From IMG/VR virus record IMGVR_UViG_3300025892_000043, positions 1 through 43,354 of that record: a DNA stretch of 43,354 bases; one strand, given 5' to 3'. Of this stretch, positions 13,601 through 34,302 are shown one piece after another. The stretch is from a virus. The notes below the pieces were generated by a model, which had not been told where the DNA came from, did not search any database, and saw only the letters and a program-made list of their open reading frames with translations. The first letter of the stretch is position 1; every line of letters begins with the position of its first letter. The translations under genes and the position numbers were made by a program.

Positions 13601-16600
13601 CCATGAGTTACAGTACTATTTGTAATTGGATTTGCACTTGTACCAGCAATTCTCTTAAGTCCAGTACATGAAACATCTACTGGGTCAGCAAGTTTAAGTG
13701 AAGTTGGAGTAAACCCACCAACAGTAACATCTTGTGACAAACTCTCTAGTGGATCTAGACCTTCCCAATCACGAATATATGATGGGAAGTATTGTTCCAT
13801 ATCTCTTTGTAGAGTGATGGTATATCCAGTGTTTGAAGTAGGATCTCCAACCTTAGCAAAATCACATAGTTCAAGATCACCAATCAATATCTTACCTTTT
13901 TCAGGCCAGTAATCTAGAACATTATCGTTATCAAAGATATCGAATCTTGTATTGGATGGATAAGTTGGGGTGTATTCAACGTCCTCAAGCATGATAACAA
14001 TATTTGCACGGATGTCAGCAGTATTGTTCTCATTAGCATACTTATATACACCAACATAAGGTTTGTTTGGATATGACTGATCATCTTCAGCAATCTTGTA
14101 ATAAGTACTTCCAAAGAGAATATAACTTCCTGGTTTAAACAGTGTCTTCGCTTTCTTGAGTGCGGTTACCAAGTTAGCAGTACTTGGGTTATTAATACTA
14201 TTAAGAACAAAACAGTTTGTTGGTAAGATACCTATTACTTCACCAGGTTCAAACATCTCAATATTATCAGTTAGGTTTCTAACTGCTGTCAATGTGATAC
14301 CAGATGTAACAACTGAAGAGGAAGGTGATGATGTGCTTCTAATTGTAAATTGGTCAGATTCTAAATGACCAGAACCATATGAAATAAAGTCAAGTGTGGT
14401 AATGTTTCCAGAACCGTTTGTTGTTAAATATGCTTGACCAGGTGTTGATCCTGGTCTTTCTGAGTGTAGATAAACTATAGAACTTCTAGTCAGATTTGTT
14501 GTAACTGATCCAGTCTTTTCAACTTTAATCTCAGAATGAATTTCATACTGAGTACCACTTTCAATTAGATTGAGATTTGAGTGACCTTGATAATTAACTT
14601 TTGCATATCTAGAAGTTGTTGTTGCTGTATACTTGTATCTGTTTGTAGTCAGGTAACTTGTTAGGAATAGTAAATTTGAACCTTCAGCAACACTGAGAGG
14701 AATTGAACCACTAAATCTGACTTTTGCGAGTCTATAAGCACCACCACTTGTTGCAGAACCAGCAGCATTATATGCGGTGTTTGGTAATGTAACATTAGTT
14801 ACAGTTGCGTATGATGTGCTTATATTTGTGGTCTTAACAATCTTAGATGCAAATGCACCAACGAAGATGTTCTTAACAAATTCAGCATCGTTAACTGGAT
14901 AAAGGAATGTTAATTCTTTAGATAATATAGAACCACCAACAGAACTTCCATTAGAAACAGTAGAACCACTATTGTTCCATCTTAGTCTGAATGCAGATGC
15001 ATCACCAGATGTATAATTTGTGTTTAGATCATTATATCTAACTGGTTTTGGTGTTAAGAATCTTTCGTTAATCTCAGTTCTTGTTAAAAGTCCTCCAGCT
15101 GGAATAGTAACTGCAGGGAAGATTTGATTTCCATCAGAACCATTTACCTGTGCAAATGTGACTGATTCACCTTGATTAAATCTTCTTATTGCCTGATAAC
15201 TAGAAATCGGGAACGTTCTTGAATCAGCATCAGATAGTTCTCCATAAGGAGTCTTAGATGGTTCCAAGAATAGAGTTTGGTCTGAGTTGAAACCAGAGAC
15301 TCTTTGGAAGTCCTCGTCATCTCTAGCAACACCAAGTCTTCTTGCATTTAGTCCACCCAATGCCTGTAGTGAGTTATCATCTTCCATCTGTAGTAGTTCT
15401 ACAGAGTGTCCATATGTGAACGAACCACCAGCACGTGAATTACCAGTATACATCAATCCAGTCCAATCTAGAGATAAATTACCTCTAATTCTGAGACCAG
15501 TCAGTGAAAGATTTGAACCTCTAGCGCGAATTAGTCCACCAGCATATCCACCACCAAACGTGTTTGCTTGAGTAGTAGATGGAGACATACCACCAATTGT
15601 ACAATTAGCAAGAGAGAATGGTACGTTAGAACCAGGAATAGCATTAACGTTAACAATTGGTGAACAGAAGTTACCAGTACATGGTAGAGCAGCTGCTTTA
15701 AATCTCTTTCTTAAAGTTCTATGGTTATTAGGCCATGATAGATAGATATTCTTACCAATAGCATTATCTCTGGTAGTACCAGAGTCTAGGTAAGGACAAA
15801 CAGGAGCAAGAAGGTTAGATTTAGCAACTGCAATAAACTGTTCATCATTAGAGAATCTTGTAGTAGAAGTATTAACTGTAGCACCATTCACATCAATGAA
15901 ACCTCTACCGTCTTCAATAGTTGCGGTAAATGTTCCATTATATGCTGTTATAGTACCAGAAACATTAAAACTAGTAATTACACCATTAGTTCTATTAATA
16001 GAAATAACTGCACCAACACCAGTTGCACTACCGGTCGGAATTAGAGTTACTGTAGCACGACCGTTATAGTCACTACCACCACTACTTAATGCACTATCCA
16101 ATGCAGTTTTAATTAAAGCTGTAGAAGAAGCACTTGAGAATGTAACTTGATTACTAGTAAATGCAGCACCAGTACCGACACCACCGGAAGCACCTAGAGA
16201 GAACGGTGTAAATCCACCAAATCTACCCATAATACCAGAGTTAATACCTCTATTATCAATATATGCTTCAGAAGATGATTGTGGATTTTCAACATTAGTT
16301 TCATTATCTCCGGAACTGTATAGTTCACCTGGATTTACTTGCAGTAGAACAAATCTATTCGATGTATTACCAGTAATTCTCTTGAATCCATTAAACTTAT
16401 ATGGAAGTGTAACACCACCATCCTCATTTGTATCATTTCTCATCTGCAGTAGTACAGCAATATAAGAATTGAAATCCCTAAATGGATATGGTTTAATTGA
16501 ACTATCAATATCAGTACTTGGATTTAAATCAATAACGAGGTTGATTGTTCCTCTATCATAACCATTGATAATACCGAAGACTTCTGGGGTATCAAACTTA

Positions 16601-19600
16601 TCAATTACATTACCAAAATCATCCGATTGAGTAAACGAAACTTTAGTATTTGCAGTAATTATTGCAGTCGTGGGATCACTAAGTGCAATTTCAGTAGAAC
16701 TGTTAACAGTAATTGTTGTACCAGATGCAATACCAGTACCAAAGATAACATCACCACTTTGCAGAGATGTTGTATCATTTAATGTTAATACACTTACACC
16801 AGAAGCAGCTTGTGAAGGAACTGTCTTAATAATAGCACCTTGATAACCACCAGCCCACGCAAAGTTCTTTGGAAGAAGTTCTCTTCTTCTTGCAATACAC
16901 CAGTTATATGCAAGAGTCGTAAATTCATCACCATCTCTGTTGACAAATACCATATTTGCATTGTTACTATTAACATATGTACTTAAATCTAAGTCTTCAG
17001 TAGTGTTCGTAAAGCTGGATGAGTTACCGCCATTTTCGTTACTAGCGGTTGATCTATAAACAGAAACTAGAATTATAATTTTTTCGGAATTAGCACCAGT
17101 TGCCCACTCAGTAGGATCTTCCTCAACAGTTCTATTAACATATCTAACGTTAAGAACCTTTGTTGATGGAGTAGCGTTTGATACATCATTACTAGTATTC
17201 TGTAACCAGAACATTGTTGTACCAGGAATAATATAATTTCTCGCCCAGATAAATCTCTTATAGTCAGGCACTGATCCACTGGTTCCAGTGAACTGAGCTG
17301 CATCAAGAGTTATAGTCATATAACGGGCATTTTGTGTTAGATCCAACGTAGTTCCAGGGAAATTAGTTCCACCTGGATTAAACGAACAATCATCACCACT
17401 ACCAGTCAATGAAGCAGCTGTATCAAGTTTTGCAAGTAAGAAGTCATCACTGTGAATATATGGATCTAATTTTACTTTACCTGTAGCAGTAGCACTCTGT
17501 TTTCCTTGGAATAGAAGACCACCAGGAAGTGCTTTTTCAGATGCAGGGAATCCATCACTAGTCTTAATATACCATGCTTTTCTTATTAGTTTTCTAGCAT
17601 TAGAAGTTTTTGTATCAGTAGAATAAGTTTCATCTAAAATTTCATTCTTTGTAATAGCATCATTAAGACCCAAGAAGTGAAGATTATTCAGACTAAATCC
17701 ACCAGTTGACGTTAAACCACCACTAACAGTAGAATTGAAAGCGTCACTATTTCTACCGTACTGATCCCTAAAGGATGGGGCACGATACAAGTAAATACTA
17801 TCTCCTCTCTTAATAGTAGATTCTAAGTATCCACCCATTCTACCAGCAGAAGTACCAGTCTGTTCCTTACCAGCATAGACATTACTCTTAGTTAACCCAG
17901 TACCATTAATAGTAAGTTGACATGGGAATGAAGAACCATCTAGTTTATAATAACCAGGTTTGAGTAGAAGTTCTACATTATCTTGTACACCAAAACCAGA
18001 TATTTCACACCACTTTTGCGCTTGTGCAAAAGTTGATAATGGAGTGAACTTCTTAACAGCTTGTCTGTTCTGTAAGTTAACACCAAGTGCTTTAGCACTG
18101 AATGGATTTGGTAGAGAATTATCAACGAAACTCTCATCAATATCACCAGTATAAGCATCAACTTTTTCTGGGACTGTATATAGAGTTGCAGATTCTAGAT
18201 CAACGTCTTCTGAGATTGATTCGACTGATGGAATAAATGGTTCTTCTTTTGCCCATCTATCATAGAAGGAAACTGTAGTTGTACAACCAGCAAAGAATAC
18301 GTTTTTACTTGGTACACCAGCAAGACCATTATTATAAGATGTTGTATATGTATGACCAGTATCATTGGCGGAAGCATTAGGTACTTTTCTTACAAGAACA
18401 AGGTTTCCGACTGAAGATGATTTATAATAAACGTAAGTAGAGTATCTATATGTTCCTCCAACTGGATTTTCACGTAATGTTACTGCACCACGATCTGGGA
18501 AGTTTGACCAATCTCCAGTTGAAATAGAAATTGTTTGTGGTGATGCTGGTGTTGGATTACCAATACTATTAACATCTACGTTTGATGTAATATTTGATCT
18601 TAAATACTTAATATCCTTTTCACTAGCAGATACACCATCATCAATTGGGTTTGACCAATGTTTGATAATACTGGTGTAACCACTTGTACCTAAAATATCT
18701 TCTAGATATTCTTGTCTAACCTTATAGTTTTGAGTTGGATTTAATGAAATTATATTAGTGGTGTAATCAATACCTGTATAGTAAAGTGACACTAATATTT
18801 CAGGGTTTAAATAAGTATCTGTACTTCCAACTGTCCTAAAGTCATTAGATTCAACATACTTAAGTCTCATAGCAACATCAACGATACCAAATGATGGGAT
18901 ACCAGCTGATTCTTTGACTTTAACAGTTGTTGATGTTGGAGTCAGAGCGACAGATTGAGATAAAGAATTATCCATCAAGGTTCTACTTAATGGTTGAATA
19001 TAAATTCTGTTGTTATCTAGTGTAACATTAGATGCAGAAATAAGTTGTCTCTTGATTCTCCAAGCATCCAGGAACTTAGGAGAAACGTAGAGTCTATCAT
19101 TAGTATCCGTTGAGATGTAACCAGTTTTTTCTGGTCTTGCACCTTTAACGAAACCAAATGCTTCCTGGTTTGCTTCTGGGAATTTCTCACCATTAGCAAT
19201 TCTAGTACTTGCAATGTAGAGTCTCTCATTAACAATGAGGTTCTGGATAGTTGCTCTATCGGTAACACTAAGTTTCGCAGTATTGAAGAAATTAGATAGT
19301 GCTTTGAGTGCAGATTGACCAGCACTGTTTTTAGCGGTTGTTGCAGTAACGTTAACAACTGCGTTAGAGATTCTATTTTCTAGGTTGGTAATGTCAACAT
19401 AGTTAGACTCGGATGACTTACGAACCTTAGGAACGTTCAATGTAATGGTTGAAGTACCACCTGCTTGAACAACCTGTGAACCAATATAGAAATCACCGTT
19501 AGAGTTTGTACCGGAAGATGCAACGAAACCACCAGCGTTCTCATAACCCTGTGCAATGAACTGTTCATAAGCCTTAAGAACTCTAGTCTGTAGGTTGGGG

Positions 19601-22600
19601 AAACCAGTTGAATAGTTACCAGAACCAAGACCGACATATTCCCAAGTATGTGAAGAAGCACGTAAGATAGATGGTCTGAAGAGAGGAACAGTTGGTGATG
19701 CGTTAGTAATTGATAAAGTATCTGTTTCGGATGGTGCTGTGTAAATCTTATCTTTTTCTACGACAACAATTCTTCTCTCATTTGATTCACCATTAATACC
19801 GAATGTATTTTGACTAACTGTAGAAGAAATAGTTGTTAATAAACCATTAGAGCCACGACGGAAAGAACCAGTACCGTAAATACTTACATCAGAAGTTGTA
19901 TGGTCACTATAACCACTTCTAGCATCCCAAGAAACAACAGGAGCAATAACAGGTATAGTAGTAGAAGAAGATGTAGACCCTGCATATCTCAAGTCTAATG
20001 ACTGTACAAGTCTATGACATGCTTCAGCAGTCACAGAAGTCATTGATGGAACTTCTTTGAATGGAGTAGTAGCAGTTCCAGAATAGAAGAAAGATGCGTT
20101 AGGAACAGATAGATCCTTGACTCTCTTACCACTACCAATAGCTTCAACTAGAACACGAGAATCTGACTGTGGTGGGTTCCAGATCTTTCTGATATCATAA
20201 GTTGGACCTTCCTCATTGACAGATGGATATAGGTAGTTAATATTGGAAGATACTCTAGTATTCTTATCGAATAGATTGAGACCTTCAACAACATTGATAG
20301 TAAATGATGTTGAATTATTTTCTAGAGGTCTTCTGGTAATTGTTTCCGAATTATTATCAGTACCATACATGAATGTATTAACGTCAGATCTAATAATTGT
20401 TAGATAGTAGACGCCATCTCTTACGTTATATTCCCATGCAGTTACTTCCTCGACATCGTATACCTGGAATCTGAAATCTGTATAAGGCATTCCAGTACCA
20501 TCATTATCTAATCTAGTACCCTTGATGATAAATCTCTTTTCAGGTGGTTTTGGAATAGTTTGAGATGCTTTAGGAATTGTATACTCAACTCTCCACAATA
20601 GATCGGATGGAGATGCAGCGCGACTATCAAGATACTTAGAAGTTGTTAGAGTTGATGGGAATCCATCGAAGTACTGCAGTACAGTGATTTCACTAGTACC
20701 AGTAATAATTGAGATAGATCCATCTGGGTTTGTTTTTTCAGTAGTCGTAAAGACTGCTTCAGTTGTTGTTGCAAATATAAAGTTTGTTAGAAAAGCATCA
20801 GTTGCAGAATCAGCAGCATCTACTTTTATATAAATTTTATTGACCGTAGCATCCCAGAAATAACCTTGCCTTTCTGCATTTTCACCTGCTGTTTCTGATG
20901 TAGTTTCACCATTTATAGCAAGTCTTGCTGTATATTTTGTTGTACCACCATCTTCTGTCTCAACAACAGTTTGAATTTTAGCTTCCGAAGCAGCAGAAAC
21001 ACCAGTAGTGTTATAATAATCTCTGAAAAGATTATAATTATTATTGCTACCAAAGTTTAAGAATCTCTTAGTTACTGTTGAGTTAGTCGTATGATCATAT
21101 GCGTCAACAATAAGTTCTGGAATATCACCTTCGCTACTTAGACCACCAATATCAAGATATATTCTGAATTTGTTTTGATTAGATGTAAATGTTGCTACAG
21201 CACCGGCATTGAAATTTTTGTCTGGCTGATCATTCTTTTGCCAAGTTGTATTATAGTCAATTGCGTAAAATTCTGCAGTAGATACTGTAGAAGAGATACC
21301 TCTAGGTGGAATGATAGCAGTGATTTTACCTTGTGCTGCAGGAGCAAATGACTGAGCCTGAGATCCTTTTGCACGAAGCGAAATTTGACCAAAGTTAGAG
21401 TTAGAGTTAGTGATTGACATATCACCACCACTCTCTGACAAGAACTGGTCTGCATAACCAACAGCAAAGACCGAAACTACCTGAATGAAAGCACCGTCTG
21501 TTGCTTTAATGTGGAAGTGTCTCCAAGATGGACGATATTGTGCATCCGGATCTGCATAAATTGGTGGATTTGTAGTACCAGTTGGATCATTGTATGTAGT
21601 GTTATTTGGATCACCTTCTGGGTCTTTTGGTTGCCAGAATGCGTTATTATCTCTTTGTAGTGAAATGCCCGTAAACTGTGCAACAACCATGGATTTAAAG
21701 CTCTTCTCAGAGACTTTACTACCATCAGTATGCATACCGCAAAGTCCGAAAACAGAACGTAGCGAGCAGTTAAAGATATAAGGAGAACAACCATTAACAG
21801 TGTCAATAGTTGTACTTAGAGTTCTATCGCCAACAATTTCAAATTCTTCTCTTCTTGCTTTTCTTGTATTACCACCATCAAGGGTTGTATCCCAGTGGTC
21901 AATCTTTTTGTAATATGTTTCAAGTTCACCATCAGCAGTTCTTTGGTCTGCATATGTGAATGAAACAACTCTATGGTGAGAATATGCAGCGTCCGCAGCA
22001 GTTGCGAATGTTGGAATACCAGATGAATATGTAACACCATTTGCAGGAGCTGTTTTTGCATCCTTAAAGGTCATCTGCCAGAAGTAGCAACCACCAGTTA
22101 CCTTAAATATTGCAGTTCTCTCATATACACCAGGAGTCTTCTCAACCAGGGTGGTATAAGTATCTGGGTTATTGAGGATGATTGCAAAAACACCATCAGC
22201 AGATACTGAAGAAGGTCCACTAACAGCACCACCAAGTGCTGCAAGACCAGTATCAATACTAGAACAATCTCCACCACCTGCTGTATAGTCTACACCAGAA
22301 GTATATGTTGGTTGTGCAACTGTACTACCAGAAACTGAAGTATGTGTATATCCAGAACCAAATGTATGAGCAGCTTTAATAGCAACTGTCATTGCATAGT
22401 CAATTGCCCATAATGTAGCAGCTTTTTCGTTAGTTCCAGTTACATGTTGTAAAGCAACACCGTTTGTATATCTCTCACCAGCAATAAACGTATTTTCGTT
22501 ACCACCTTCACGAAGGTCAGCAATCCATGCGTCAACAACTAGACCGATGTCTCTTTGACACGTAGAGTTAATTTTAAGTACAGTGGGAAACTGTGCATCA

Positions 22601-23418
22601 GCAGCAAGGAAAGCCTGTTCTACAATATATCCGCGCGCCTTCTCGATCATATTTGCAGCATCAAGCGTAACCGAGTTTGATTGATATGCTGCACCAACCT
22701 GATCACCAGTATCTGCGCCCAGAGTCGATGATGGGTTAGGAACGAATTTTGGTCTAATAACAGTTTTTCTTAAATCATAACCAATAACTGAAGTACCGCG
22801 AGGAACGACAATACCACCATTCTTAGGGTTGAACTTATAAAGTTCATTTTCAAATGTACTGAAAGTTAGGTTTGAAGTACCAATAACACCTGGTCTGTTG
22901 TCAACTGTGTAATCACCAGGCATAACCATAATGGTATATGCTTCAAATCTGTCATTTTCGTGATCACCACCAGCGCCGGGGTTACTACTTCCTGTATCAG
23001 CTACATAACTTCTTCTAGCGGCTTCAAGAAGTGCTCTCTCAATAGTTTTGAAAGGAGTGTTTACATTACCACCAGTATTACTAATCGAGTCAGTTGAATT
23101 TAAGTCAGACTGATTGACATACAACATGATATTTGTTGCATTATCAAAGTCTGGGTTAGTACCACCAACAATACTACCGGCTGTATCAGTTGCATCTCTA
23201 TATGTCTTTAGTTTACCATCTGCACCAATGGTAAATCTCTTAATTCCTGCAGTTGCAAACGAAATTTCATTTGCGCCTGACTGATACATACCAGTGTCAG
23301 TATCCCCATTAAAGCTGACAGCAGGTAAATTACCTGTCATCTGAGGTTCGTTTTGGGCATTAAATTTAATCTCAACACCAGGTGCAATTCCACCTGAGGT
23401 TACTCTTGTTAGAGCCAT
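10642..23418 (-). CDS. giant virion structural protein (4258 aa)
   Basis: This single uninterrupted frame of 4258 codons is about 30% of the window. It begins MALTRVTSGGIAPGVEIKFN, then TGMYQSGANEISFATAGIKR, which resembles a fibre head. Around residues 110-240 and again around 1790-1860 there are pectin-lyase-like beta-helix starts (YTIMVMPGDYTVDNRPG; NVELLLKPGYYKLDGSSFP). The rest is beta-rich, with Ser/Thr/Asn/Gly-rich linkers and few helices. The C-terminus contains GDLSEFQGQIMNVDVTRLN. It is probably a very long tail or baseplate-attached fibre or adhesin, which is inference. Two late-promoter motifs and a CGGAG ribosome-binding site precede it. No frameshift or internal stop is visible. 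Confidence 0.85.
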   Translation of the reverse strand: MALTRVTSGGIAPGVEIKFNAQNEPQMTGNLPAVSFNGDTDTGMYQSGANEISFATAGIKRFTIGADGKLKTYRDATDTAGSIVGGTNPDFDNATNIMLYVNQSDLNSTDSISNTGGNVNTPFKTIERALLEAARRSYVADTGSSNPGAGGDHENDRFEAYTIMVMPGDYTVDNRPGVIGTSNLTFSTFENELYKFNPKNGGIVVPRGTSVIGYDLRKTVIRPKFVPNPSSTLGADTGDQVGAAYQSNSVTLDAANMIEKARGYIVEQAFLAADAQFPTVLKINSTCQRDIGLVVDAWIADLREGGNENTFIAGERYTNGVALQHVTGTNEKAATLWAIDYAMTVAIKAAHTFGSGYTHTSVSGSTVAQPTYTSGVDYTAGGGDCSSIDTGLAALGGAVSGPSSVSADGVFAIILNNPDTYTTLVEKTPGVYERTAIFKVTGGCYFWQMTFKDAKTAPANGVTYSSGIPTFATAADAAYSHHRVVSFTYADQRTADGELETYYKKIDHWDTTLDGGNTRKARREEFEIVGDRTLSTTIDTVNGCSPYIFNCSLRSVFGLCGMHTDGSKVSEKSFKSMVVAQFTGISLQRDNNAFWQPKDPEGDPNNTTYNDPTGTTNPPIYADPDAQYRPSWRHFHIKATDGAFIQVVSVFAVGYADQFLSESGGDMSITNSNSNFGQISLRAKGSQAQSFAPAAQGKITAIIPPRGISSTVSTAEFYAIDYNTTWQKNDQPDKNFNAGAVATFTSNQNKFRIYLDIGGLSSEGDIPELIVDAYDHTTNSTVTKRFLNFGSNNNYNLFRDYYNTTGVSAASEAKIQTVVETEDGGTTKYTARLAINGETTSETAGENAERQGYFWDATVNKIYIKVDAADSATDAFLTNFIFATTTEAVFTTTEKTNPDGSISIITGTSEITVLQYFDGFPSTLTTSKYLDSRAASPSDLLWRVEYTIPKASQTIPKPPEKRFIIKGTRLDNDGTGMPYTDFRFQVYDVEEVTAWEYNVRDGVYYLTIIRSDVNTFMYGTDNNSETITRRPLENNSTSFTINVVEGLNLFDKNTRVSSNINYLYPSVNEEGPTYDIRKIWNPPQSDSRVLVEAIGSGKRVKDLSVPNASFFYSGTATTPFKEVPSMTSVTAEACHRLVQSLDLRYAGSTSSSTTIPVIAPVVSWDARSGYSDHTTSDVSIYGTGSFRRGSNGLLTTISSTVSQNTFGINGESNERRIVVVEKDKIYTAPSETDTLSITNASPTVPLFRPSILRASSHTWEYVGLGSGNYSTGFPNLQTRVLKAYEQFIAQGYENAGGFVASSGTNSNGDFYIGSQVVQAGGTSTITLNVPKVRKSSESNYVDITNLENRISNAVVNVTATTAKNSAGQSALKALSNFFNTAKLSVTDRATIQNLIVNERLYIASTRIANGEKFPEANQEAFGFVKGARPEKTGYISTDTNDRLYVSPKFLDAWRIKRQLISASNVTLDNNRIYIQPLSRTLMDNSLSQSVALTPTSTTVKVKESAGIPSFGIVDVAMRLKYVESNDFRTVGSTDTYLNPEILVSLYYTGIDYTTNIISLNPTQNYKVRQEYLEDILGTSGYTSIIKHWSNPIDDGVSASEKDIKYLRSNITSNVDVNSIGNPTPASPQTISISTGDWSNFPDRGAVTLRENPVGGTYRYSTYVYYKSSSVGNLVLVRKVPNASANDTGHTYTTSYNNGLAGVPSKNVFFAGCTTTVSFYDRWAKEEPFIPSVESISEDVDLESATLYTVPEKVDAYTGDIDESFVDNSLPNPFSAKALGVNLQNRQAVKKFTPLSTFAQAQKWCEISGFGVQDNVELLLKPGYYKLDGSSFPCQLTINGTGLTKSNVYAGKEQTGTSAGRMGGYLESTIKRGDSIYLYRAPSFRDQYGRNSDAFNSTVSGGLTSTGGFSLNNLHFLGLNDAITKNEILDETYSTDTKTSNARKLIRKAWYIKTSDGFPASEKALPGGLLFQGKQSATATGKVKLDPYIHSDDFLLAKLDTAASLTGSGDDCSFNPGGTNFPGTTLDLTQNARYMTITLDAAQFTGTSGSVPDYKRFIWARNYIIPGTTMFWLQNTSNDVSNATPSTKVLNVRYVNRTVEEDPTEWATGANSEKIIILVSVYRSTASNENGGNSSSFTNTTEDLDLSTYVNSNNANMVFVNRDGDEFTTLAYNWCIARRRELLPKNFAWAGGYQGAIIKTVPSQAASGVSVLTLNDTTSLQSGDVIFGTGIASGTTITVNSSTEIALSDPTTAIITANTKVSFTQSDDFGNVIDKFDTPEVFGIINGYDRGTINLVIDLNPSTDIDSSIKPYPFRDFNSYIAVLLQMRNDTNEDGGVTLPYKFNGFKRITGNTSNRFVLLQVNPGELYSSGDNETNVENPQSSSEAYIDNRGINSGIMGRFGGFTPFSLGASGGVGTGAAFTSNQVTFSSASSTALIKTALDSALSSGGSDYNGRATVTLIPTGSATGVGAVISINRTNGVITSFNVSGTITAYNGTFTATIEDGRGFIDVNGATVNTSTTRFSNDEQFIAVAKSNLLAPVCPYLDSGTTRDNAIGKNIYLSWPNNHRTLRKRFKAAALPCTGNFCSPIVNVNAIPGSNVPFSLANCTIGGMSPSTTQANTFGGGYAGGLIRARGSNLSLTGLRIRGNLSLDWTGLMYTGNSRAGGSFTYGHSVELLQMEDDNSLQALGGLNARRLGVARDDEDFQRVSGFNSDQTLFLEPSKTPYGELSDADSRTFPISSYQAIRRFNQGESVTFAQVNGSDGNQIFPAVTIPAGGLLTRTEINERFLTPKPVRYNDLNTNYTSGDASAFRLRWNNSGSTVSNGSSVGGSILSKELTFLYPVNDAEFVKNIFVGAFASKIVKTTNISTSYATVTNVTLPNTAYNAAGSATSGGAYRLAKVRFSGSIPLSVAEGSNLLFLTSYLTTNRYKYTATTTSRYAKVNYQGHSNLNLIESGTQYEIHSEIKVEKTGSVTTNLTRSSIVYLHSERPGSTPGQAYLTTNGSGNITTLDFISYGSGHLESDQFTIRSTSSPSSSVVTSGITLTAVRNLTDNIEMFEPGEVIGILPTNCFVLNSINNPSTANLVTALKKAKTLFKPGSYILFGSTYYKIAEDDQSYPNKPYVGVYKYANENNTADIRANIVIMLEDVEYTPTYPSNTRFDIFDNDNVLDYWPEKGKILIGDLELCDFAKVGDPTSNTGYTITLQRDMEQYFPSYIRDWEGLDPLESLSQDVTVGGFTPTSLKLADPVDVSCTGLKRIAGTSANPITNSTVTHGYIAPDGKYNTTVAKINIKSDDDQTAAKEKLSIGQVVHLPYRDLSVNFSNSPFNTSSFKIGSPLGVAGSNVSTNRAGDLRLSGKFTSGTTKYFNYWYRFHLFNNARDTGALYNSVSSLATCKMYWSPGGTNRLSGAGYYMTSNGIRFYGYRWYTLDAATVNSGSSEVVIGSGDTMYIQTDGTYTASLSNTGILNVTSVSDGGLFLGQSISGTGIPANAYISGYAGYSEPTGVSLSGKGGTGTYLVSIAGIPNTTTVASTTITGSRPANGTDRVVYYPGQSGYWQRRVTKKSYNASNGKTTLTFNSTTTNTFTGGSILMYYYGASEDNVVLSLDKALLNDANTTPGGNGNELQLGWNLSDSKSNSSACKIFKSRIIDIGDHGSIGGIDLYLADPLPEQYTGSTDMRHYGFLFVNYGGWTYPSQGGSSYRSNNAALGSSNTTMILPNRAGRIQPGDTIRYSYEDDVSDTDNQASPTVVNYSGQVSSVAAVDAQGYSIITLSTSSNHILYSGHTHKQQWLSVGDIFVSHRTGNFVTNGPVMDKFIYSDTGLKMKFGQYRMWYANISNYINTTNGITGRAGWIGNFALSSTGSKVLGLGLNGASAIQWGRQYNNGVWLSAHPTTPRWVGFNGRYSSKTSFSNLMMQIQSSSSIESWMSNTSTVPSYEGGGNENTSFYPINHSHLTCGSLYAGLNTSNSEFGYVGAYDVAQYQWSPSTTKLNIGLQDGVVDISNGEITSGGTGSRITEGLIISRVQHYKPTGWPSQDSGVSFNINSFEPSGNITATTGSTTVTGSSTTFTNDILPGDQLYSEEGNDSTPTWVGTVSSIASDTSLTLRSNAAVATSGDGTWSIISSRVKKAGDNAPNASLIFSGNSLAAGLTVGNSGVLSTRISNDFTVPGNNVIRANRAGYDRYNFAFRIDKRTYNQTPLLNTRGEITPVSRPDDARKVMLPKMGDLSEFQGQIMNVDVTRLNPKTHIERSISVVGSQINI

Positions 23419-26634: not shown

Positions 26635-27966
26635 TTAGTTAGTACCGTCTAAGTTTGTTCGATTCTCAAATCGTTTTGTGTCAGGCATTGGTTTTCCTCC
26701 ATAGGAATCCCTAGATAATGTAATGTAAGTACGAAGTTCACTTCTATTTAGAATACTATGTTTAATAGATGTAACTAGATACCTACCACTAGCTCTCTTG
26801 TCTGGTTTGACATTAGTTGATGATGATTCAGAAGGTGATGGAAGATCTATGTTGATAACATTACCAGCTCTATTTTCTAAATCACCAGGAACAGTTATGT
26901 CGATAGTATTATACTGCATAAAATAGTATCTGTAAAATGCTTTCTCAAAGTTTTTGTTCATATCATCAATATTATCTTTCTCACTATCACTTTGATTATT
27001 ATCCCAATCACCAAACGTACTGATTGTAGATGGTCTATAGATATATCTACTACCCCTATCTAACATTTGAACTTGACCATTACTTAAGTATGGTTTAGTT
27101 TTCTCTAGATGAGAACTCTTGTCCCAAAATTCATCAGCATTAGTTTTAAATACTCGATAGGTTGCTCTATTTACATCCAAATAAATTGCTTGGTGACAAA
27201 AAGCACCTGCTCTCAGGTCATCATAAACATCAAACACTTTAGGAAAACTAAAATTCATAACCCTGTATCTATCAGCTGCTGATGTTGATGTTACATCAGC
27301 GTTTGCTTGAGAATACTTATATCTAATATCAGGAGCAGGATAAGATGGTTGATCTATTAATTGATCAATAGATTTAAATCTATAACCTTCAAATGTTTCA
27401 TAGAAAAGGAACCCAATAGAATCTTTTTTATAATCAGGAATAGATCTAATTGATAACCAATTAAATAAATCAAAGACTCTCCAGTTAGGAACATACATGT
27501 CAAATGGAAACACTGAATTATCTTTTTCAAATGGTTTTGTAGAGAAACCACTTCTTCTCAATACATCTTCGATAACTGTCTCAGAATTCTTTCCATCTAT
27601 CCTTTCACATATTCTAAAGTTTTCGTTTCTTAGTCCCTCAATAGAAACGGCATGAATAATATATGTCTGATCTTTCTCAATAATTGTACGTGCATCTACT
27701 TTATAGATGTAATAATTTAAATCATATAATTTATTATTACTTGCAATTTTTATCTGAATTCTTTCTTGACCAACAATTGGCATACTACTGATCAAATTCT
27801 GTCCAATATCTTGAATCAGTAGTTCTGCCTGAAGAGCAGAAGATACAACACTTTCATATAAATTAATCTCCAATACAAGTTTTTTTATATCAATAGCTTC
27901 GCTATTATATACGTTGTATAGAGTTACTTCCTTTAAAGAAAAGTCTCCAGAAAATTGATTTGCCAT
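26635..27966 (-). CDS. 27: gp27-like baseplate hub protein (443 aa)
   Basis: The 443-residue protein has the layout of T4 gp27/VgrG hub proteins. The N-terminal beta domain contains LKKVTLYN-like and IDIKKLVLEINLYESVVSSA segments, then LLIQDIGQNLISSMPIVGQE. A middle domain contains FPFDMYVPNWRVFDLFNWLS and SIGFLFYETFEGYRFKSIDQ. The C-terminus has RYLVTSIKHSILNRSELRTY. Trimers of gp27 form the torus to which the gp5 spike attaches; the gp5-like gene lies two genes downstream. The start codon overlaps the stop of the GH19 gene (TAATG), suggesting coupling. Sequence similarity to T4 gp27 is weak by eye, so the assignment leans on fold pattern and order. Confidence 0.8.
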   Translation of the reverse strand: MANQFSGDFSLKEVTLYNVYNSEAIDIKKLVLEINLYESVVSSALQAELLIQDIGQNLISSMPIVGQERIQIKIASNNKLYDLNYYIYKVDARTIIEKDQTYIIHAVSIEGLRNENFRICERIDGKNSETVIEDVLRRSGFSTKPFEKDNSVFPFDMYVPNWRVFDLFNWLSIRSIPDYKKDSIGFLFYETFEGYRFKSIDQLIDQPSYPAPDIRYKYSQANADVTSTSAADRYRVMNFSFPKVFDVYDDLRAGAFCHQAIYLDVNRATYRVFKTNADEFWDKSSHLEKTKPYLSNGQVQMLDRGSRYIYRPSTISTFGDWDNNQSDSEKDNIDDMNKNFEKAFYRYYFMQYNTIDITVPGDLENRAGNVINIDLPSPSESSSTNVKPDKRASGRYLVTSIKHSILNRSELRTYITLSRDSYGGKPMPDTKRFENRTNLDGTN

Positions 27967-30143
27967 TATAACCTACTAAGGACTTGATTAACCTGCTTCC
28001 TATCTTTATTTAGAGTGAAACCGGTAGTATGTACTCCTAAGTTTTCTTCTTTAACATTGTTTATTATGATTGGTTGTTCTGTAATTTGATTAGTTTTTAT
28101 CTTTTCATTAATTACAAACTCAGTACTCATAGATGGCATCATTGAACCAGGTGGTGATTTCTTTGATAGTGCAGCAGCTGTTGTGGGTTTAATCGATCTA
28201 TCAACAGGGTTATAAGATAAATCTGGTGGACTTATTTTTCTATTTGGTATCGGATTTAATCCACCAACTTGTCCACCAAGTGGCATATTAGAATACTTAT
28301 TAAACTTTGAAATACGATCGTCTAAACCATTAAGTCCACCATTTATATTACGAGTGACAGTACGCATACCAGGCATACCCTTTCTAGCAGCGTTTCTGTC
28401 TACTCTATCTTTCCAATAAGCAAGAGCAACTTTTGCTGCGTTTTGAGGCTCAGCAAGTTTTTCTGGATTCTCTACTGCATCTGCTACGCCAATCATAGGA
28501 CCGTATTTTCTATAGTTTGCGCGCCCTGTAATCTGGATGTAGCCTCTACCTTTAAATCTTTTTCCATCGCCTGGTTGAGTATTGCCGAGATCACTTCTAC
28601 CCTCATAAGCTGCCCCACTAGCAATCTCTTCCATATAAAGTCCATCAGCAGATTCATGACCAACTTGTGCCATAAACATGATACGTTCATTTTTGTCTGT
28701 AATACCACCCTTATCCATAGTCTCTATCATGAGATTCATATAATCAGTATTGGTTAGAGAGATATTAGACGAAGATCCATCATTGATTTGTGTATCTTGA
28801 CCTTCATTACTAACGGAATCTTTCTTATCCGTATCTGTAGATCCACCACCAAACCAACCATCATATAACAGTCCACCAAGATCTCCACCAACCCAACCAC
28901 CAAGAAAAGCACCAAATGGTCCGCCAATAGCAGCACCAATAGCACCAATCAATGCAGTACCTATTGCTTTAAAAGCAGACCTAGCAGGAGGTTGTTTGAA
29001 TACAAATACATCCAAGAAGAATTGTAGGATAGCACCAATAAAAGGAATCCTACTAATCATTTTGGTAAATCCTCTACCAACTGCACCAAGAAGTTTAAAT
29101 AAACTCTTACCACCAACTTTGATAATAAATCTCCTCAATGGTTTGAAGAGTTTACTCATAAAAACTTTACCTAGAGTCTTGTTCAAAGATTTCTGAACAA
29201 AATTCTGGATCATCCTAATTGGTTTTCGTAAAATTTTATTTACAAACTTACCAAATTTTTTGAAAATTTTAAATACTTTTTTTAGATCTTTAACTAACTT
29301 GAATGGATTTTTTAACCACCTAAGTACAAAGAAACTTCCTATTAATTTAAGAGCTCCACTAAATCTTTCTCCAATACTTCTATCAGGTCCAAGAAGTTGT
29401 GACAATCCTGTTAAAGTATTATCAATAAATCCTTCAACAAAAGAGTTGATAAATTTAAATGCATGACCCATAAAGGTAACAATACCTTTTACAGCTTCTT
29501 TATTTTTTGGATCTGATATCCAATTTAAAGCTGCAAACGCTATAATGTCACCAAAGAGTCCAAAGATATCTCCAAAGACATTTGTTACCTTACCTTTAAT
29601 TTTTCTACCGACGCCAAAGATATCTCTACCAGGAGTTTTTCTTTCTTTCTTCTTCTCCTTTTTCTTTTTACCTTTTAACTTATCAGTTTTTTTAGACGCT
29701 TTCTTTTGTTTACTTTTTAAATTAATTATTCTTTTAAGAGATTCTAATAATTTTTTAAGAGCATCTTTAAAGCTTTCTTTTGACTCTTCAGCTTCTTGAG
29801 GTGGTGCATCATCAACATTGACTCTTACATTCTCGGTAGAAGGATTTTCATTAGAGAACACTTCTGTGAAAGGAACAATAGCACCTTTTCCTCCTCCTGC
29901 AGCTGCACCATTTAATGCATCTAGATCACGTTCCTGTTGAGCAAATCCTCCAACATCAGATTCCGCTTTTTGTCTAACATTTTGTGCTGCTTTAACACCA
30001 GAGACAACACCGCTTTTGAAAGCCTCTGTGTTAATTTTAGAACCCATCTTCCCTTTTTTAAAGAGGGCTTTTCTCTCAGATGGTGAAAGATATTCACCTG
30101 TTTCTGGATTTATACCGTGAGCAGTTACGTTAATATCTGACAT
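27966..30143 (-). CDS. tail protein with GH19 chitinase/lysozyme domain, tape-measure-like (725 aa)
   Basis: Residues 1-170 are charged and end in a Lys-rich stretch. Residues 180-430 are hydrophobic helices and glycine-zipper segments (ALIGAIGAAIGGPFGAFLGG), which may insert in a membrane. Residues of about 485-620 form a GH19 domain: AQVGHESADGLYMEE with likely catalytic Glu497 and a second acid near 505-506, YEGRSDLGNTQPGDGKRFKG, RGYIQITGRANY and NGG. GH19 enzymes cleave chitin or peptidoglycan glycan chains. The NWISDPKN and RWLKNP motifs are shared with the next upstream gene, suggesting duplication. By position, between gp51 and the gp27-like hub, it could replace T4 gp29 (tape measure/hub). 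The C-terminal 100 residues look disordered. Confidence 0.8.
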   Translation of the reverse strand: MSDINVTAHGINPETGEYLSPSERKALFKKGKMGSKINTEAFKSGVVSGVKAAQNVRQKAESDVGGFAQQERDLDALNGAAAGGGKGAIVPFTEVFSNENPSTENVRVNVDDAPPQEAEESKESFKDALKKLLESLKRIINLKSKQKKASKKTDKLKGKKKKEKKKERKTPGRDIFGVGRKIKGKVTNVFGDIFGLFGDIIAFAALNWISDPKNKEAVKGIVTFMGHAFKFINSFVEGFIDNTLTGLSQLLGPDRSIGERFSGALKLIGSFFVLRWLKNPFKLVKDLKKVFKIFKKFGKFVNKILRKPIRMIQNFVQKSLNKTLGKVFMSKLFKPLRRFIIKVGGKSLFKLLGAVGRGFTKMISRIPFIGAILQFFLDVFVFKQPPARSAFKAIGTALIGAIGAAIGGPFGAFLGGWVGGDLGGLLYDGWFGGGSTDTDKKDSVSNEGQDTQINDGSSSNISLTNTDYMNLMIETMDKGGITDKNERIMFMAQVGHESADGLYMEEIASGAAYEGRSDLGNTQPGDGKRFKGRGYIQITGRANYRKYGPMIGVADAVENPEKLAEPQNAAKVALAYWKDRVDRNAARKGMPGMRTVTRNINGGLNGLDDRISKFNKYSNMPLGGQVGGLNPIPNRKISPPDLSYNPVDRSIKPTTAAALSKKSPPGSMMPSMSTEFVINEKIKTNQITEQPIIINNVKEENLGVHTTGFTLNKDRKQVNQVLSRL

Positions 30144-30147
30144 TTAC

Positions 30148-32511
30148 TTATATCGCAAGACTATAAATTGCCCACAACCCAGATGTAGGAAGTGTACCCC
30201 CAACAGCTGTTTCCGATGCCTTTTGGGTTGCTTGAGTGGAAGTTGAATTATTAATAACAGTAGGACTAGATTTTTTAGATCCACCAGAAGATAACGATCT
30301 ACTTTCCCTCTGAGCAGATCCTAAATTAGATCCCGATGATGAGGGAGTCGGAGAAAGCTTTGGTGGGGTTGATGGATCATTTTGATGTTGTGGAGTAATT
30401 GATGCTGGTGGTGCGGAAGGTTCTCCTGTACCCGGAGAGGATCCATATGTAGGTTTACCATTAGTAATATAATTAATAAAAGCTTCATGACCAGCAGATT
30501 CTGCCTCCAAGTGTAGGTGATCTGCATAATTACCACCAGTACTACCCTGAGTTCCTATAATAGTTCCCGCTTTTATTTTATCTCCAACTTTAACTTTACC
30601 AAATTTACTCAAGTGAGCAAATAACATATTTCCAGTAGCATTTTTTAAGATTACTGTATTTCCATATCCACTGAACGATTGAACGTGTGTTACCTCAGAG
30701 TCTAATGGAACTGGAATATCTGCATTGGGAGCGGAATTTAAATCAGTTCCATGTAACAGTGTATAGTCTCTTGGCCAACCATCCTGTCTCTTTGGTTGTT
30801 GTTCTCCATGATGAAGTCTTATAGAATTAAATGAATATGATTTACCTGGTTTTAGTGACTTGTTAACACCACCACCATTACTACTAAAATATTTAATGTT
30901 ACCAGAATACCCAGAAGAATTTCTTTCAGTTTTTGCGTCCTTTTTAGTGTCTGCTGATGAAGTTACTGGATCATCATCCTTATGTTGTCCATGTTCTTTA
31001 TCAAACGCTGCAACTAGACCCTCAACTTTAGTTGCATCTACACGAACTGTTTTATTTTTTTTACCTCTACGTGTTGCAACTTCTTTTCTTGTCGTGACCG
31101 ACCAACCATCTTTCTTTCTTGTGAAATTATATGTTACACCATCTAACTCAACAGATTTTGCTGCGTTTACCTTGACACCATAATTCTTATCACCAAGATC
31201 TGCAGTACCAGAAGTTTTTGTTATGGGTTTAGTTGCTGGAGGTTGTGATGGTTTATCTGGTTTTGGAGTAGATTTAGCACCACTAGTACTTCTTCTATTA
31301 TTTCTTCTAGTCTGTGTATTTTTATTACCACCACCACCACCACCGCCGCCAAAAATATTACCAACAGCATTAGTAATACCAGTCCATGCATTACCAAGTA
31401 ATCCTTTAACAAAACCTGCAGCACTTCCAAGTAAACTTCCTACATTACCCAGATCAATTCCCTTGAGTGGATTGTTAAACAGTCCGCTAACAAGATCACC
31501 AATTTTTGTTATTGCACCACCAGTAATTGCATCTAATAAAGAACCAAGAATTCCTGGTACAACTTCTATTAATGTTTTAGGAACCTCCATCAATGTGTTG
31601 AAGAATTCCCCTGGATTTGTTAACCACTTAAGCTCAATAACATCCTTGACTACATTAAACAAGGACATGAATATTTTAAATCCGCCACCAAAAAGTTTCT
31701 TACTAAATTCCCACCACGGTTCAACAAAGTTCTTCCACATGAACTTTAAGGCACCTGGAATAGCTCCTATAAACTTAACGAGTTGCGTTACCTTTTCTGT
31801 ATTTTTTGGATCAGCAATCCAATCTAAAACTTTATATAAAACAAAGTCCTTAAAGATTCCCATCAAGAAATCAAATATATTACCAAGACCTTTTTTAGCA
31901 GCTGATACTACAGGATTTTTTTTCTTCCTTCCTTTCTTTGCTTTCTTTTCTTCCTGTTTATTTTCTTCTTCGTCTCTCTTCTGAGATTCTAATAGTTTTC
32001 TTTCCTTCTCTTGGTCCTTCTTTGTATCTTTATATTCTTTGTTATCATTATCTAATTCTTTTACTTCAACTTCAAGAATTTGATCAGCGGTTTGTTTTAT
32101 CTGTTCTAACAAACCAAGTACGTTATCTTTGGTAGGTCCAGTCTTCACAATTGCAGAAGATTTTTGACTGGTTGGTCCTACTGATGGAGTTAAAGCTCCT
32201 CCTTCGTTAATGGTTCTACCTTGTACAGCAAGACCACCGTTCTCAGATCTAGTAATAGCAGAGTCATTTGTTTGCTTAACCAATCCCCCACCACGATTAC
32301 CTCCACCTCTACCACCGACGCCACCACCTCTCATGGTGTTCCTTGCGCCTTGTCTTACTCCTGATCTTATTCCTTGTCTTAATCCGCCCTTAGCTCCCGC
32401 TCTAACACCTGTCATCAGAGCAGAACGTCCTCCCATAAGAGCACCACGACCCAATCCTCCTAGGAGTCCTTTTATTAATGGTGCTGCTGCAGCGGCGAGT
32501 GGAGCTGGCAT
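30148..32511 (-). CDS. tail protein with M23-like peptidase domain, tape-measure candidate (787 aa)
   Basis: The ATG at 32511, one base after the gp51 stop, is chosen over an ATG 51 bases upstream that would overlap gp51. The Gly/Arg/Ala-rich N-terminus (MPAPLAAAAAPLIKGLLGG) is followed by a coiled coil (about 130-190), a Lys-rich stretch, hydrophobic helices (about 200-390) with DWIADPKN and KWLTNP motifs, and an eight-Gly linker. Residues 570-690 form an M23-like domain with LLHGTDL, NMLFAHLSKFGKVKVGDKIK, AGTIIGTQGS and DHLHLE. The HLH pair fits the M23 active site, but the first ligand motif is HxxD rather than HxxxD. Its place right after gp26-gp51 fits a tape measure with lytic activity. 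Confidence 0.8.
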   Translation of the reverse strand: MPAPLAAAAAPLIKGLLGGLGRGALMGGRSALMTGVRAGAKGGLRQGIRSGVRQGARNTMRGGGVGGRGGGNRGGGLVKQTNDSAITRSENGGLAVQGRTINEGGALTPSVGPTSQKSSAIVKTGPTKDNVLGLLEQIKQTADQILEVEVKELDNDNKEYKDTKKDQEKERKLLESQKRDEEENKQEEKKAKKGRKKKNPVVSAAKKGLGNIFDFLMGIFKDFVLYKVLDWIADPKNTEKVTQLVKFIGAIPGALKFMWKNFVEPWWEFSKKLFGGGFKIFMSLFNVVKDVIELKWLTNPGEFFNTLMEVPKTLIEVVPGILGSLLDAITGGAITKIGDLVSGLFNNPLKGIDLGNVGSLLGSAAGFVKGLLGNAWTGITNAVGNIFGGGGGGGGNKNTQTRRNNRRSTSGAKSTPKPDKPSQPPATKPITKTSGTADLGDKNYGVKVNAAKSVELDGVTYNFTRKKDGWSVTTRKEVATRRGKKNKTVRVDATKVEGLVAAFDKEHGQHKDDDPVTSSADTKKDAKTERNSSGYSGNIKYFSSNGGGVNKSLKPGKSYSFNSIRLHHGEQQPKRQDGWPRDYTLLHGTDLNSAPNADIPVPLDSEVTHVQSFSGYGNTVILKNATGNMLFAHLSKFGKVKVGDKIKAGTIIGTQGSTGGNYADHLHLEAESAGHEAFINYITNGKPTYGSSPGTGEPSAPPASITPQHQNDPSTPPKLSPTPSSSGSNLGSAQRESRSLSSGGSKKSSPTVINNSTSTQATQKASETAVGGTLPTSGLWAIYSLAI

Positions 32512-32512
32512 A

Positions 32513-32698
32513 TTAACTCTGTTGGTTCTTTTGACGTTCGTTTTCTTCTTTAATATAATCAACTAGCATCTGAACATAAATCTCCCTCTCCCAAGGAATC
32601 ATATTATCCAATTCAGTTAAACTATATTTGTGGTGTTGCATCATAGCAAAATTAACTTGGTAATAATTTTCAAGTGATTCATGGGATAGGGCTATCAG
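32513..32698 (-). CDS. 51: gp51 baseplate hub assembly factor, probably expressed by -1 frameshift from gp26
   Basis: The frame has 61 codons from the gp26 stop to a TAA. The product includes HESLENYYQVNFAMMQHHKY, LTELDNMIPWEREIYVQMLV and EENERQKNQQS, as in short gp51 proteins of cyanophages. No ATG occurs before codons 19-20, which lie inside the conserved-looking part. The only codon usable near the junction is CTG, overlapping the gp26 TGA. The frame is instead joined to gp26 by a TTTTTTC slippery heptamer, giving a predicted 299-residue gp26-gp51 fusion. In T4, gp51 acts catalytically in hub assembly; in lambda, the GT fusion links a chaperone to the tape measure. The stop is followed after one base by the next gene's ATG. 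Confidence 0.75.
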   Translation of the reverse strand: MIALSHESLENYYQVNFAMMQHHKYSLTELDNMIPWEREIYVQMLVDYIKEENERQKNQQS

Positions 32699-33411
32699 AA
32701 AAAACTTGCTAGACCCTCAATTACTACTTCACTGGTTACCTTAGTATTTGGATTTGTAACAGAGATTGTATGAGATAATTTTGGCATAGTCTCAAAGAAT
32801 TTCTGTACCTTCAAGAATTGTTTTGTATCCATTCCTTCTAAAAATTCATTGATCTCTTTCTTAGAACAATTAGAAGCTTCATATACCTCTTCACCCTCTA
32901 CAATTTGATTAATGCACATAGATGCAATTTCAAATACATCATCCACATCTGACGATGAATCATCAGACATATTATTTTTAATGAATAGATCCATACTTGG
33001 ATACTTCATCACAACTGACACATCATCATTCATTTTTATAATGTTTGAATGATCTTCCTGTTTGTCAACAACAATCTCATCCAGATCAATTTGAACATCT
33101 ACTGTAGTTTCATTGTCATCAGGACAAGTAATCTTTAGATCTACAGTTTCACCTACAGATTTTCCTCTAATATTTAAGAAGATATATTCAATATCAAACA
33201 GAGCAAGATTATCAATTTTAAATCTAGGTGTCTGAATGCAGTTAGATAAAATAGTTTTAACTGCATTTGCCATCTGATTTTCATCCTCAGTTTCCATAGC
33301 AAGTAAAAGAATTTTTTCTTCCTTTACTAGGAAAGGTCTGTACTTAATTTTTTTACCTGTAGATGGCACAACCAACTCATAAGTTGGCGTAGAAAGTTTT
33401 GGTAACGTCAT
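32695..33411 (-). CDS. 26: gp26 baseplate hub subunit / assembly chaperone (238 aa)
   Basis: The 238-residue protein begins MTLPKLSTPTYELVVPSTGK and has KYRPFLVKEEKILLLAMETE, then ALFDIEYIFLNIRGKSVGET, VDLKITCPDDNETTVDV and a C-terminal helical part ending EVVIEGLASFF. This is the T4_baseplate (gp26) family pattern. T4 gp26 takes part in hub assembly. By position (just before gp51 and the long tape-measure-like genes) it is equivalent to tail-assembly chaperone G of siphoviruses. A consensus late promoter (TATAAATA) and a CGGAG ribosome-binding site lie upstream. Its end carries the probable slippery site that leads into gp51. Confidence 0.9.
   Translation of the reverse strand: MTLPKLSTPTYELVVPSTGKKIKYRPFLVKEEKILLLAMETEDENQMANAVKTILSNCIQTPRFKIDNLALFDIEYIFLNIRGKSVGETVDLKITCPDDNETTVDVQIDLDEIVVDKQEDHSNIIKMNDDVSVVMKYPSMDLFIKNNMSDDSSSDVDDVFEIASMCINQIVEGEEVYEASNCSKKEINEFLEGMDTKQFLKVQKFFETMPKLSHTISVTNPNTKVTSEVVIEGLASFF
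32698..32704 (-). promoter_or_regulatory. putative -1 ribosomal frameshift site T TTT TTC
   Basis: In the gp26 frame the last codons read AGT TTT TTC TGA, so the heptamer T TTT TTC fits X XXY YYZ exactly. A slip of -1 moves ribosomes into the gp51 frame (CTG ATA GCC ...), skipping the TGA. A Shine-Dalgarno-like GAGGG ends 9 bases upstream, at the distance known to stimulate slipping in dnaX. A small inverted repeat GATAG-CC-CTATC directly follows, although it is closer than usual stimulatory stems. Confidence 0.7.
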
Positions 33412-33459: not shown

Positions 33460-34302
33460 TTAGGTAAGGAGTCCAATCAATGAATCTATAATATCTAATC
33501 CAGATCCACCATTAATAGGATCCCTAAAGTTAACAGCAGATGAAGAGTTGAGAGTTGTAGTTGTAAAAGTTTCATACTCAAAACTTACACCTAGTTTTGA
33601 CATAGATGTCTCCTCTCTACTCAGTGAAACTGAAGATATATTTGATGGGAAAGCTTTAAATATTTTTGTAGCATGTACTGGAATTGATCTATAAAATTTA
33701 GTACGGTTATTACCGTTATCATTTTGTATATCTGGAATTATATCTCTAACAGAATATGCAGTTCTTTTATCGCTTGGTTCCCTGCCATTCACAGTTCCGT
33801 TCATAGATTTTTCATACTTTACAATTATAATATCAACAGTATAGTCATCTCTATATGATGATCTAAAATTTTGTTGTGGAGATCCTATCCCAACTAAGTT
33901 TTCTAAACTCAATCTTTGATTTGCATAACCATAAATCGAATTGGTCCATAGGTCAAACAAATTTTTTATTTGAGAATCAGCATCAAGCATAAAAGATAAT
34001 TCCATCTCACTGAATACTGCACCATAAGCATATTTTAGATTTGGTGTATTAGTAATTCTATAGTCACCAGTTGATATCTGTAAACCAGGCATCGTGGCTT
34101 CATCACAATAAAGTTTAAGCAATTGTTTCGTAGAATTCAAATTAAATTGAGGATCCTTAGATAATTGTTGAATTAATTTTGGATTACTGTCTAGTTCTAT
34201 AGTGACATCATAGAAATTACTACTACTATACCCAGATTTTTTAAACTGTTCTTTAAATGTCGAATAGTTCGACATTGGCGCTACGCCAGATATTCTACTC
34301 AT
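33460..34302 (-). CDS. 54: gp54-like tail tube initiator / baseplate protein (280 aa)
   Basis: The 280-residue protein shows the tail-tube fold pattern shared by T4 gp19 and gp54: YCDEATMPGLQISTGDYRIT, then YGAVFSEMELSFMLDADSQI and FDLWTNSIYGYANQRL. The C-terminal half has FKAFPSNISSVSLSREETSM and VSFEYETFTTTT. In T4, gp54 binds the gp48 collar on the hub and starts polymerisation of the gp19 tube. Its place close to gp48 and gp26 and its length (T4 gp54 is about 320 residues; gp19 is shorter) favour gp54 over gp19. The first ATG overlaps the stop of the preceding gene by 4 bases. The tube-family fold is fairly sure, the exact number less so. Confidence 0.72.
   Translation of the reverse strand: MSRISGVAPMSNYSTFKEQFKKSGYSSSNFYDVTIELDSNPKLIQQLSKDPQFNLNSTKQLLKLYCDEATMPGLQISTGDYRITNTPNLKYAYGAVFSEMELSFMLDADSQIKNLFDLWTNSIYGYANQRLSLENLVGIGSPQQNFRSSYRDDYTVDIIIVKYEKSMNGTVNGREPSDKRTAYSVRDIIPDIQNDNGNNRTKFYRSIPVHATKIFKAFPSNISSVSLSREETSMSKLGVSFEYETFTTTTLNSSSAVNFRDPINGGSGLDIIDSLIGLLT

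Follow-up and report, generated by a model that had tools for sequence, protein, structure and literature searches.

The window analysed here is a 43,354-nt stretch of DNA from a marine T4-like phage. The genes and elements considered below, all on the minus strand, are listed with their coordinates and the evidence for each.

33460-34302, minus strand: tail-tube-like gene (gp54/gp19 type) upstream of gp26 (phrog_45 tail tube, 4.1e-30; PF23849, 6.8e-15)
33411-32695, minus strand: gp26, predicted short tail assembly chaperone (TAC-N), 238 aa (PF12322, E=1.9e-72; phrog_150; best matches by structure: tail assembly chaperones)
32714-32718, minus strand: GAGGG, Shine-Dalgarno-like, possible stimulator (GAG bias among relatives with Glu at this place)
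32704-32698, minus strand: slippery heptamer T TTT TTC in the X XXY YYZ register (sequence; T6[C/T/G] in the junctions of 100/101 relatives)
32695-32697, minus strand: TGA stop of gp26, abutting the heptamer (sequence)
32698-32513, minus strand: gp51, -1 frame extension of 61 codons plus stop (phrog_634, E=1.3e-29; pN/pS 0.20 upstream of any ATG)
33411-32698 joined to 32698-32513, minus strand: predicted long chaperone (TAC-NC), a -1 fusion of 299 aa (collinear with T4 gp51)
30148-32511, minus strand: tape-measure-like ORF of 787 aa with an M23 peptidase domain (PF01551, 9.3e-16)

The minus-strand 3' end of gp26 reads ATT GAG GGT CTA GCA AGT TTT TTC TGA, which bears out the preliminary description, in which the heptamer had been placed directly before the gp26 stop and the -1 frame was said to open there into gp51. 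The product sizes given there (238 and 299 residues), the distance of 9 nt between GAGGG and the heptamer and, for the window, the lack of an ATG before codon 19 of gp51 are likewise correct: translation of the -1 frame yields LIALSHESLENYYQVNFAMM...NQQS*, terminating at 32515-32513, and the first ATG is at codon 19. The string TTTTTTC is not enriched in the window, which has a GC content of 36% (14 found, 16.8 expected), and across the genes of the window, which comprise approximately 13,500 codons, it occurs a single time in the X XXY YYZ register, at the end of gp26. Downstream of gp51 lie two ORFs that are related to each other, one of 787 aa with the M23 domain and one of 725 aa that is chitinase/endolysin-like; judged by their location and size, both are plausible candidates for the tape measure. 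The M23 gene had been called tape-measure-like, and its length and position after gp51 fit (its ATG comes right after the gp51 stop), but no homology between the 787-aa ORF and T4 gp29 was found by blastp. The two ORFs (27966-32511) share a stretch of 110-150 residues, as if duplicated. Elsewhere in the window, a single ORF of 4258 aa occupies 10642-23418.

Comparison of gp26 with PF12322 gives 244 bits at a cut-off of 24.5, and among the PHROG families gp26 matches 'baseplate hub' (phrog_150). The tail encoded in the -1 frame matches 'baseplate hub assembly catalyst' (phrog_634) and has a weaker match to the C-terminal end of the gp26 PHROG. The structure of gp26 was modelled with AlphaFold2 (pLDDT 85.5), and the model was compared with the whole PDB using Foldseek, followed by realignment. 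The best Foldseek matches were two chains of the HK97 tail assembly chaperone, with E about 0.6 (0.55), and realignment gave Z scores of 7.3 for HK97 gp13, 7.0 for RBSTP2171, 6.8 for YqbN and 4.5 for ORF19, the next match reaching 2.3. RBSTP2171 and YqbN are, like HK97 gp13, tail assembly chaperones. The model thus points to a chaperone fold in the N-terminal domain of gp26, with support that is moderate since Z stays below 8; a sequence search of solved structures returned chance matches only.

Homologous junctions were collected from viral contigs and named phages, giving 101 in total and 64 representatives below 85% amino acid identity. They span phages of cyanobacteria, Methylophilales, Caulobacter, Pseudomonas, Stenotrophomonas, Sinorhizobium and Agrobacterium as well as pelagiphages, and include Aeromonas Ahp1 and Vibrio nt-1 as members of the Straboviridae. 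Six T followed by C, T or G are present in the same register in 100 of the 101 junctions, and the junction is therefore not a product of chance. In the 64 representatives, the codon before Phe-Phe is AGT, TCT, GAT, GCT or AAT, so that the residue varies between Ser, Asp, Ala and Asn while the wobble T is invariant. The probability of such an invariant pattern, calculated from the codon usage of the genes and assuming independence, is approximately 10^-27, a figure that is too extreme because the junctions share ancestry. The comparison of columns within gp26 serves as a control that retains ancestry, and here the first Phe is the sole column with 100% codon identity (53 sequences). Most relatives have one codon between the heptamer and the frame-0 stop; the window has none. 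The -1 tail is kept with shorter motifs (ATTTTC, CTTTTC, CCTTTTTC) in the Ackermannviridae Ag3, IME250 and Kuja and in Vibrio K355. At Ackermannviridae-type loci (L125, L126, L127, L095), the slip motif at the gp26 stop is eroded, and Kuja and IME250 also have no ATG at the junction.

Elements that could stimulate slippage differ between the lineages. Where relatives carry Glu upstream of the slip site, the codon before Gly is GAG in 45 of 52, compared to 31% elsewhere. This bias would fit selection for contact with the anti-Shine-Dalgarno sequence, although it is supportive only, since the same preference is found at Glu12 near the start of the gene: the bias is real but not unique. The small inverted repeat reported after the heptamer exists (GATAG CC CTATC), but it is not significant as a stimulator: it folds with only about -0.5 kcal/mol, and the 81 nt after the window's heptamer fold no better than shuffled sequences (z=0.11). 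Most P-SSM2-type cyanophages possess a 10-bp stem that starts 6 nt after the heptamer and is absent from the window clade. In many sequences folded singly, this stem reaches z of about -3 to -6, and it covaries; across 30 sequences, which were picked for having the stem, a choice that favours the pairing figure and the covariation less so, 91.7% of cells pair and four pairs change on both sides, and none of 500 shuffles reaches the observed pairing and covariation. RNAalifold applied to all cyanophage-type sequences found nothing, as the hairpin is clade-specific. In P-SSM2 (L083, 4005-4033) and about 30 cyanophage loci, the stem-loop holds the ATG that annotators use for gp51. The eroded motifs in Ackermannviridae and K355 and the missing 3' stem-loop in the window clade count against frameshifting.

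Selection on the tail and the distribution of start codons allow the origin of gp51 to be judged. Over the first 17 codons of the tail, all located before any ATG, pN/pS is 0.20 for the window clade; a second clade, which likewise has no ATG in this stretch, has 0.02, and the other two frames of the window clade yield 1.2 and 2.4. This strong purifying selection contradicts decay and leaves the idea that gp51 is a degrading remnant or a useless overlapping ORF, whose frame is open by chance, with next to no probability; its omission from the annotation of some phages would agree with this idea, but homologues of the tail range from cyanophages to Sinorhizobium and Vibrio phages. In reference records, gp51 is absent or shortened: it is unannotated in ACG-2014d and S-WAM1, and the records of HTVC008M, Mosig and Melnitz-3 let it begin at an internal codon. 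Cyanophage and pelagiphage loci with a missing or internally started gp51 are L082, L084, L085, L088 and L099. Where gp51 is annotated as a separate gene, as in P-SSM2, Cr30, nt-1 and phiM7, and as most deposited annotations imply, a small protein could arise if ribosomes terminated at the gp26 stop and then reinitiated at a nearby ATG. Such an early ATG, at codons 0-5 of the -1 tail, is present in 43 of 62 relatives, so that separate or coupled initiation is possible in these phages. However, the protein alignment shows Leu or Met where this early ATG lies, and the codon therefore need not be a start, while in most of the ATG-bearing cyanophages it is buried in the covarying stem. The window clade has no ATG before codons 17-19 of the tail, 16 of the 62 divergent relatives have none before about codon 17-18, and initiation at the window's codon 19 would lose 18 conserved residues. 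In addition, 63 of 64 non-redundant relatives lack any start codon in the stretch from the preceding -1 stop to the slip site, the slip site is retained alike in relatives with and without the early ATG, and T4 gp51 is one continuous long protein. Production of gp51 as a separate protein is accordingly considered very unlikely. The expectation that both the heptamer and the lack of an ATG would be conserved thus held for the TTTTTTC-type heptamer, but the absence of an ATG is not general. Relatives with their own ATG and a lost heptamer had been named as evidence against a fusion; many with an ATG at codons 2-5 of the -1 frame exist, yet none of these loses the slip site.

The change of frame could also be produced by the RNA polymerase rather than the ribosome, as all 64 representatives carry a run of 6-8 T and insertion of one base would open the same frame. 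Slippage of the polymerase is nevertheless more improbable still than a separately initiated gp51: the run comprises just 6 T in 58 of the 64, it is held to the X XXY YYZ register, a constraint not required for slippage during transcription, and the 35 further T6 runs in these genes fall in all three registers. A product of -1 ribosomal frameshifting is very likely made from gp26-gp51. The slippage itself, its rate and a division of labour between short and long forms are what we infer beyond the conserved site. Most ribosomes would terminate at the end of gp26, giving the short form of 238 aa. On the slip site U UUU UUC, with UGA as the following codon, the Shine-Dalgarno-like GAGGG 9 nt upstream may hold the ribosome back, allowing the two tRNA-Phe to re-pair one base further upstream (UUU to UUU and UUC to UUU). 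Translation would then resume in the -1 frame and add the gp51 domain, giving the long form of 299 aa. If the analogy with lambda G/GT holds, numerous short copies would coat the tape measure and a few long copies would recruit the tail tube protein through the gp51 domain.

The lambda G/GT logic proposed in the preliminary description gains support from the in-register slip site, a conserved tail without start codon in several lineages, the chaperone fold and the position of the genes, with a tail-tube-like gene on one side and the large tape-measure-like ORFs on the other. In lambda gpG/gpGT and other frameshifted chaperones (Xu, Hendrix and Duda, 2004; reviewed in PMC5009743), as in the window, a short product is accompanied by a -1 extension, the slip site lies within the final codons of the first gene, the genes are found near tail tube and tape measure genes (in the window, tail-tube-like and tape-measure-like ones), and the N-terminal part has a chaperone fold. 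The window differs in its slip site, T TTT TTC, in a T4-type contractile tail and in that no sequence similarity was seen. The chaperone frameshift of Vandenendeviridae and Andersonviridae, which uses a GTTTTT motif (PMC12846349), is likewise a -1 shift at a T run ending the TAC gene, in other phage families and with another motif. In the same source, poly-T slippery sites in TAC-N genes of T4-like phages are attributed to Vladimirov et al. (2022), and frameshifting in the T4-like chaperone group has therefore most likely been reported already.

T4 itself has been called an exception to the frameshift rule for tail chaperones (PMC5009743), and its short-gene/long-gene solution is credited, in PMC10885494, to Vladimirov et al. 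(2022). Both T4 gp26 (208 aa) and T4 gp51 (249 aa) belong to PF12322 and form the same pair of a short and a long protein. T4 gp51 aligns collinearly with the frameshift fusions, has no indel at the junction and matches the gp51 PHROG with its C-terminal part. Unlike the window, with one gene and a frameshift, T4 has two divergently oriented paralogous genes and no slip site. Its gp26 ends ...KEFFELL, three residues past the same Phe-Phe, and carries GAG TTC TTT GAG where the slip site would be, so that Phe-Phe is kept but the slippery codons are not. Two PF12322 genes are present in T4 and the T4-like Aeromonas phage ZHF, and a single one in five cyanophage-type records, namely P-SSM2, ACG-2014d, S-WAM1, Mosig and a 208-kb contig, the window itself being a 43-kb fragment. 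On balance, we lean towards an ancestral chaperone of the T4 superfamily that was a single frameshifted gene, with the T4 branch having lost the frameshift by duplication and the stimulators having turned over among the frameshifting lineages. The short copy of T4 would then have kept Phe-Phe and dropped the slip codons, the window clade may depend on the Shine-Dalgarno-like element and the adjacent stop, and most cyanophages may use the covarying stem-loop 6 nt downstream, which would also bury the alternative ATG. Much of T4's wider family, including marine cyanophages and pelagiphages, appears to obey the frameshift rule, and the two genes of T4 correspond to the two frameshift products.
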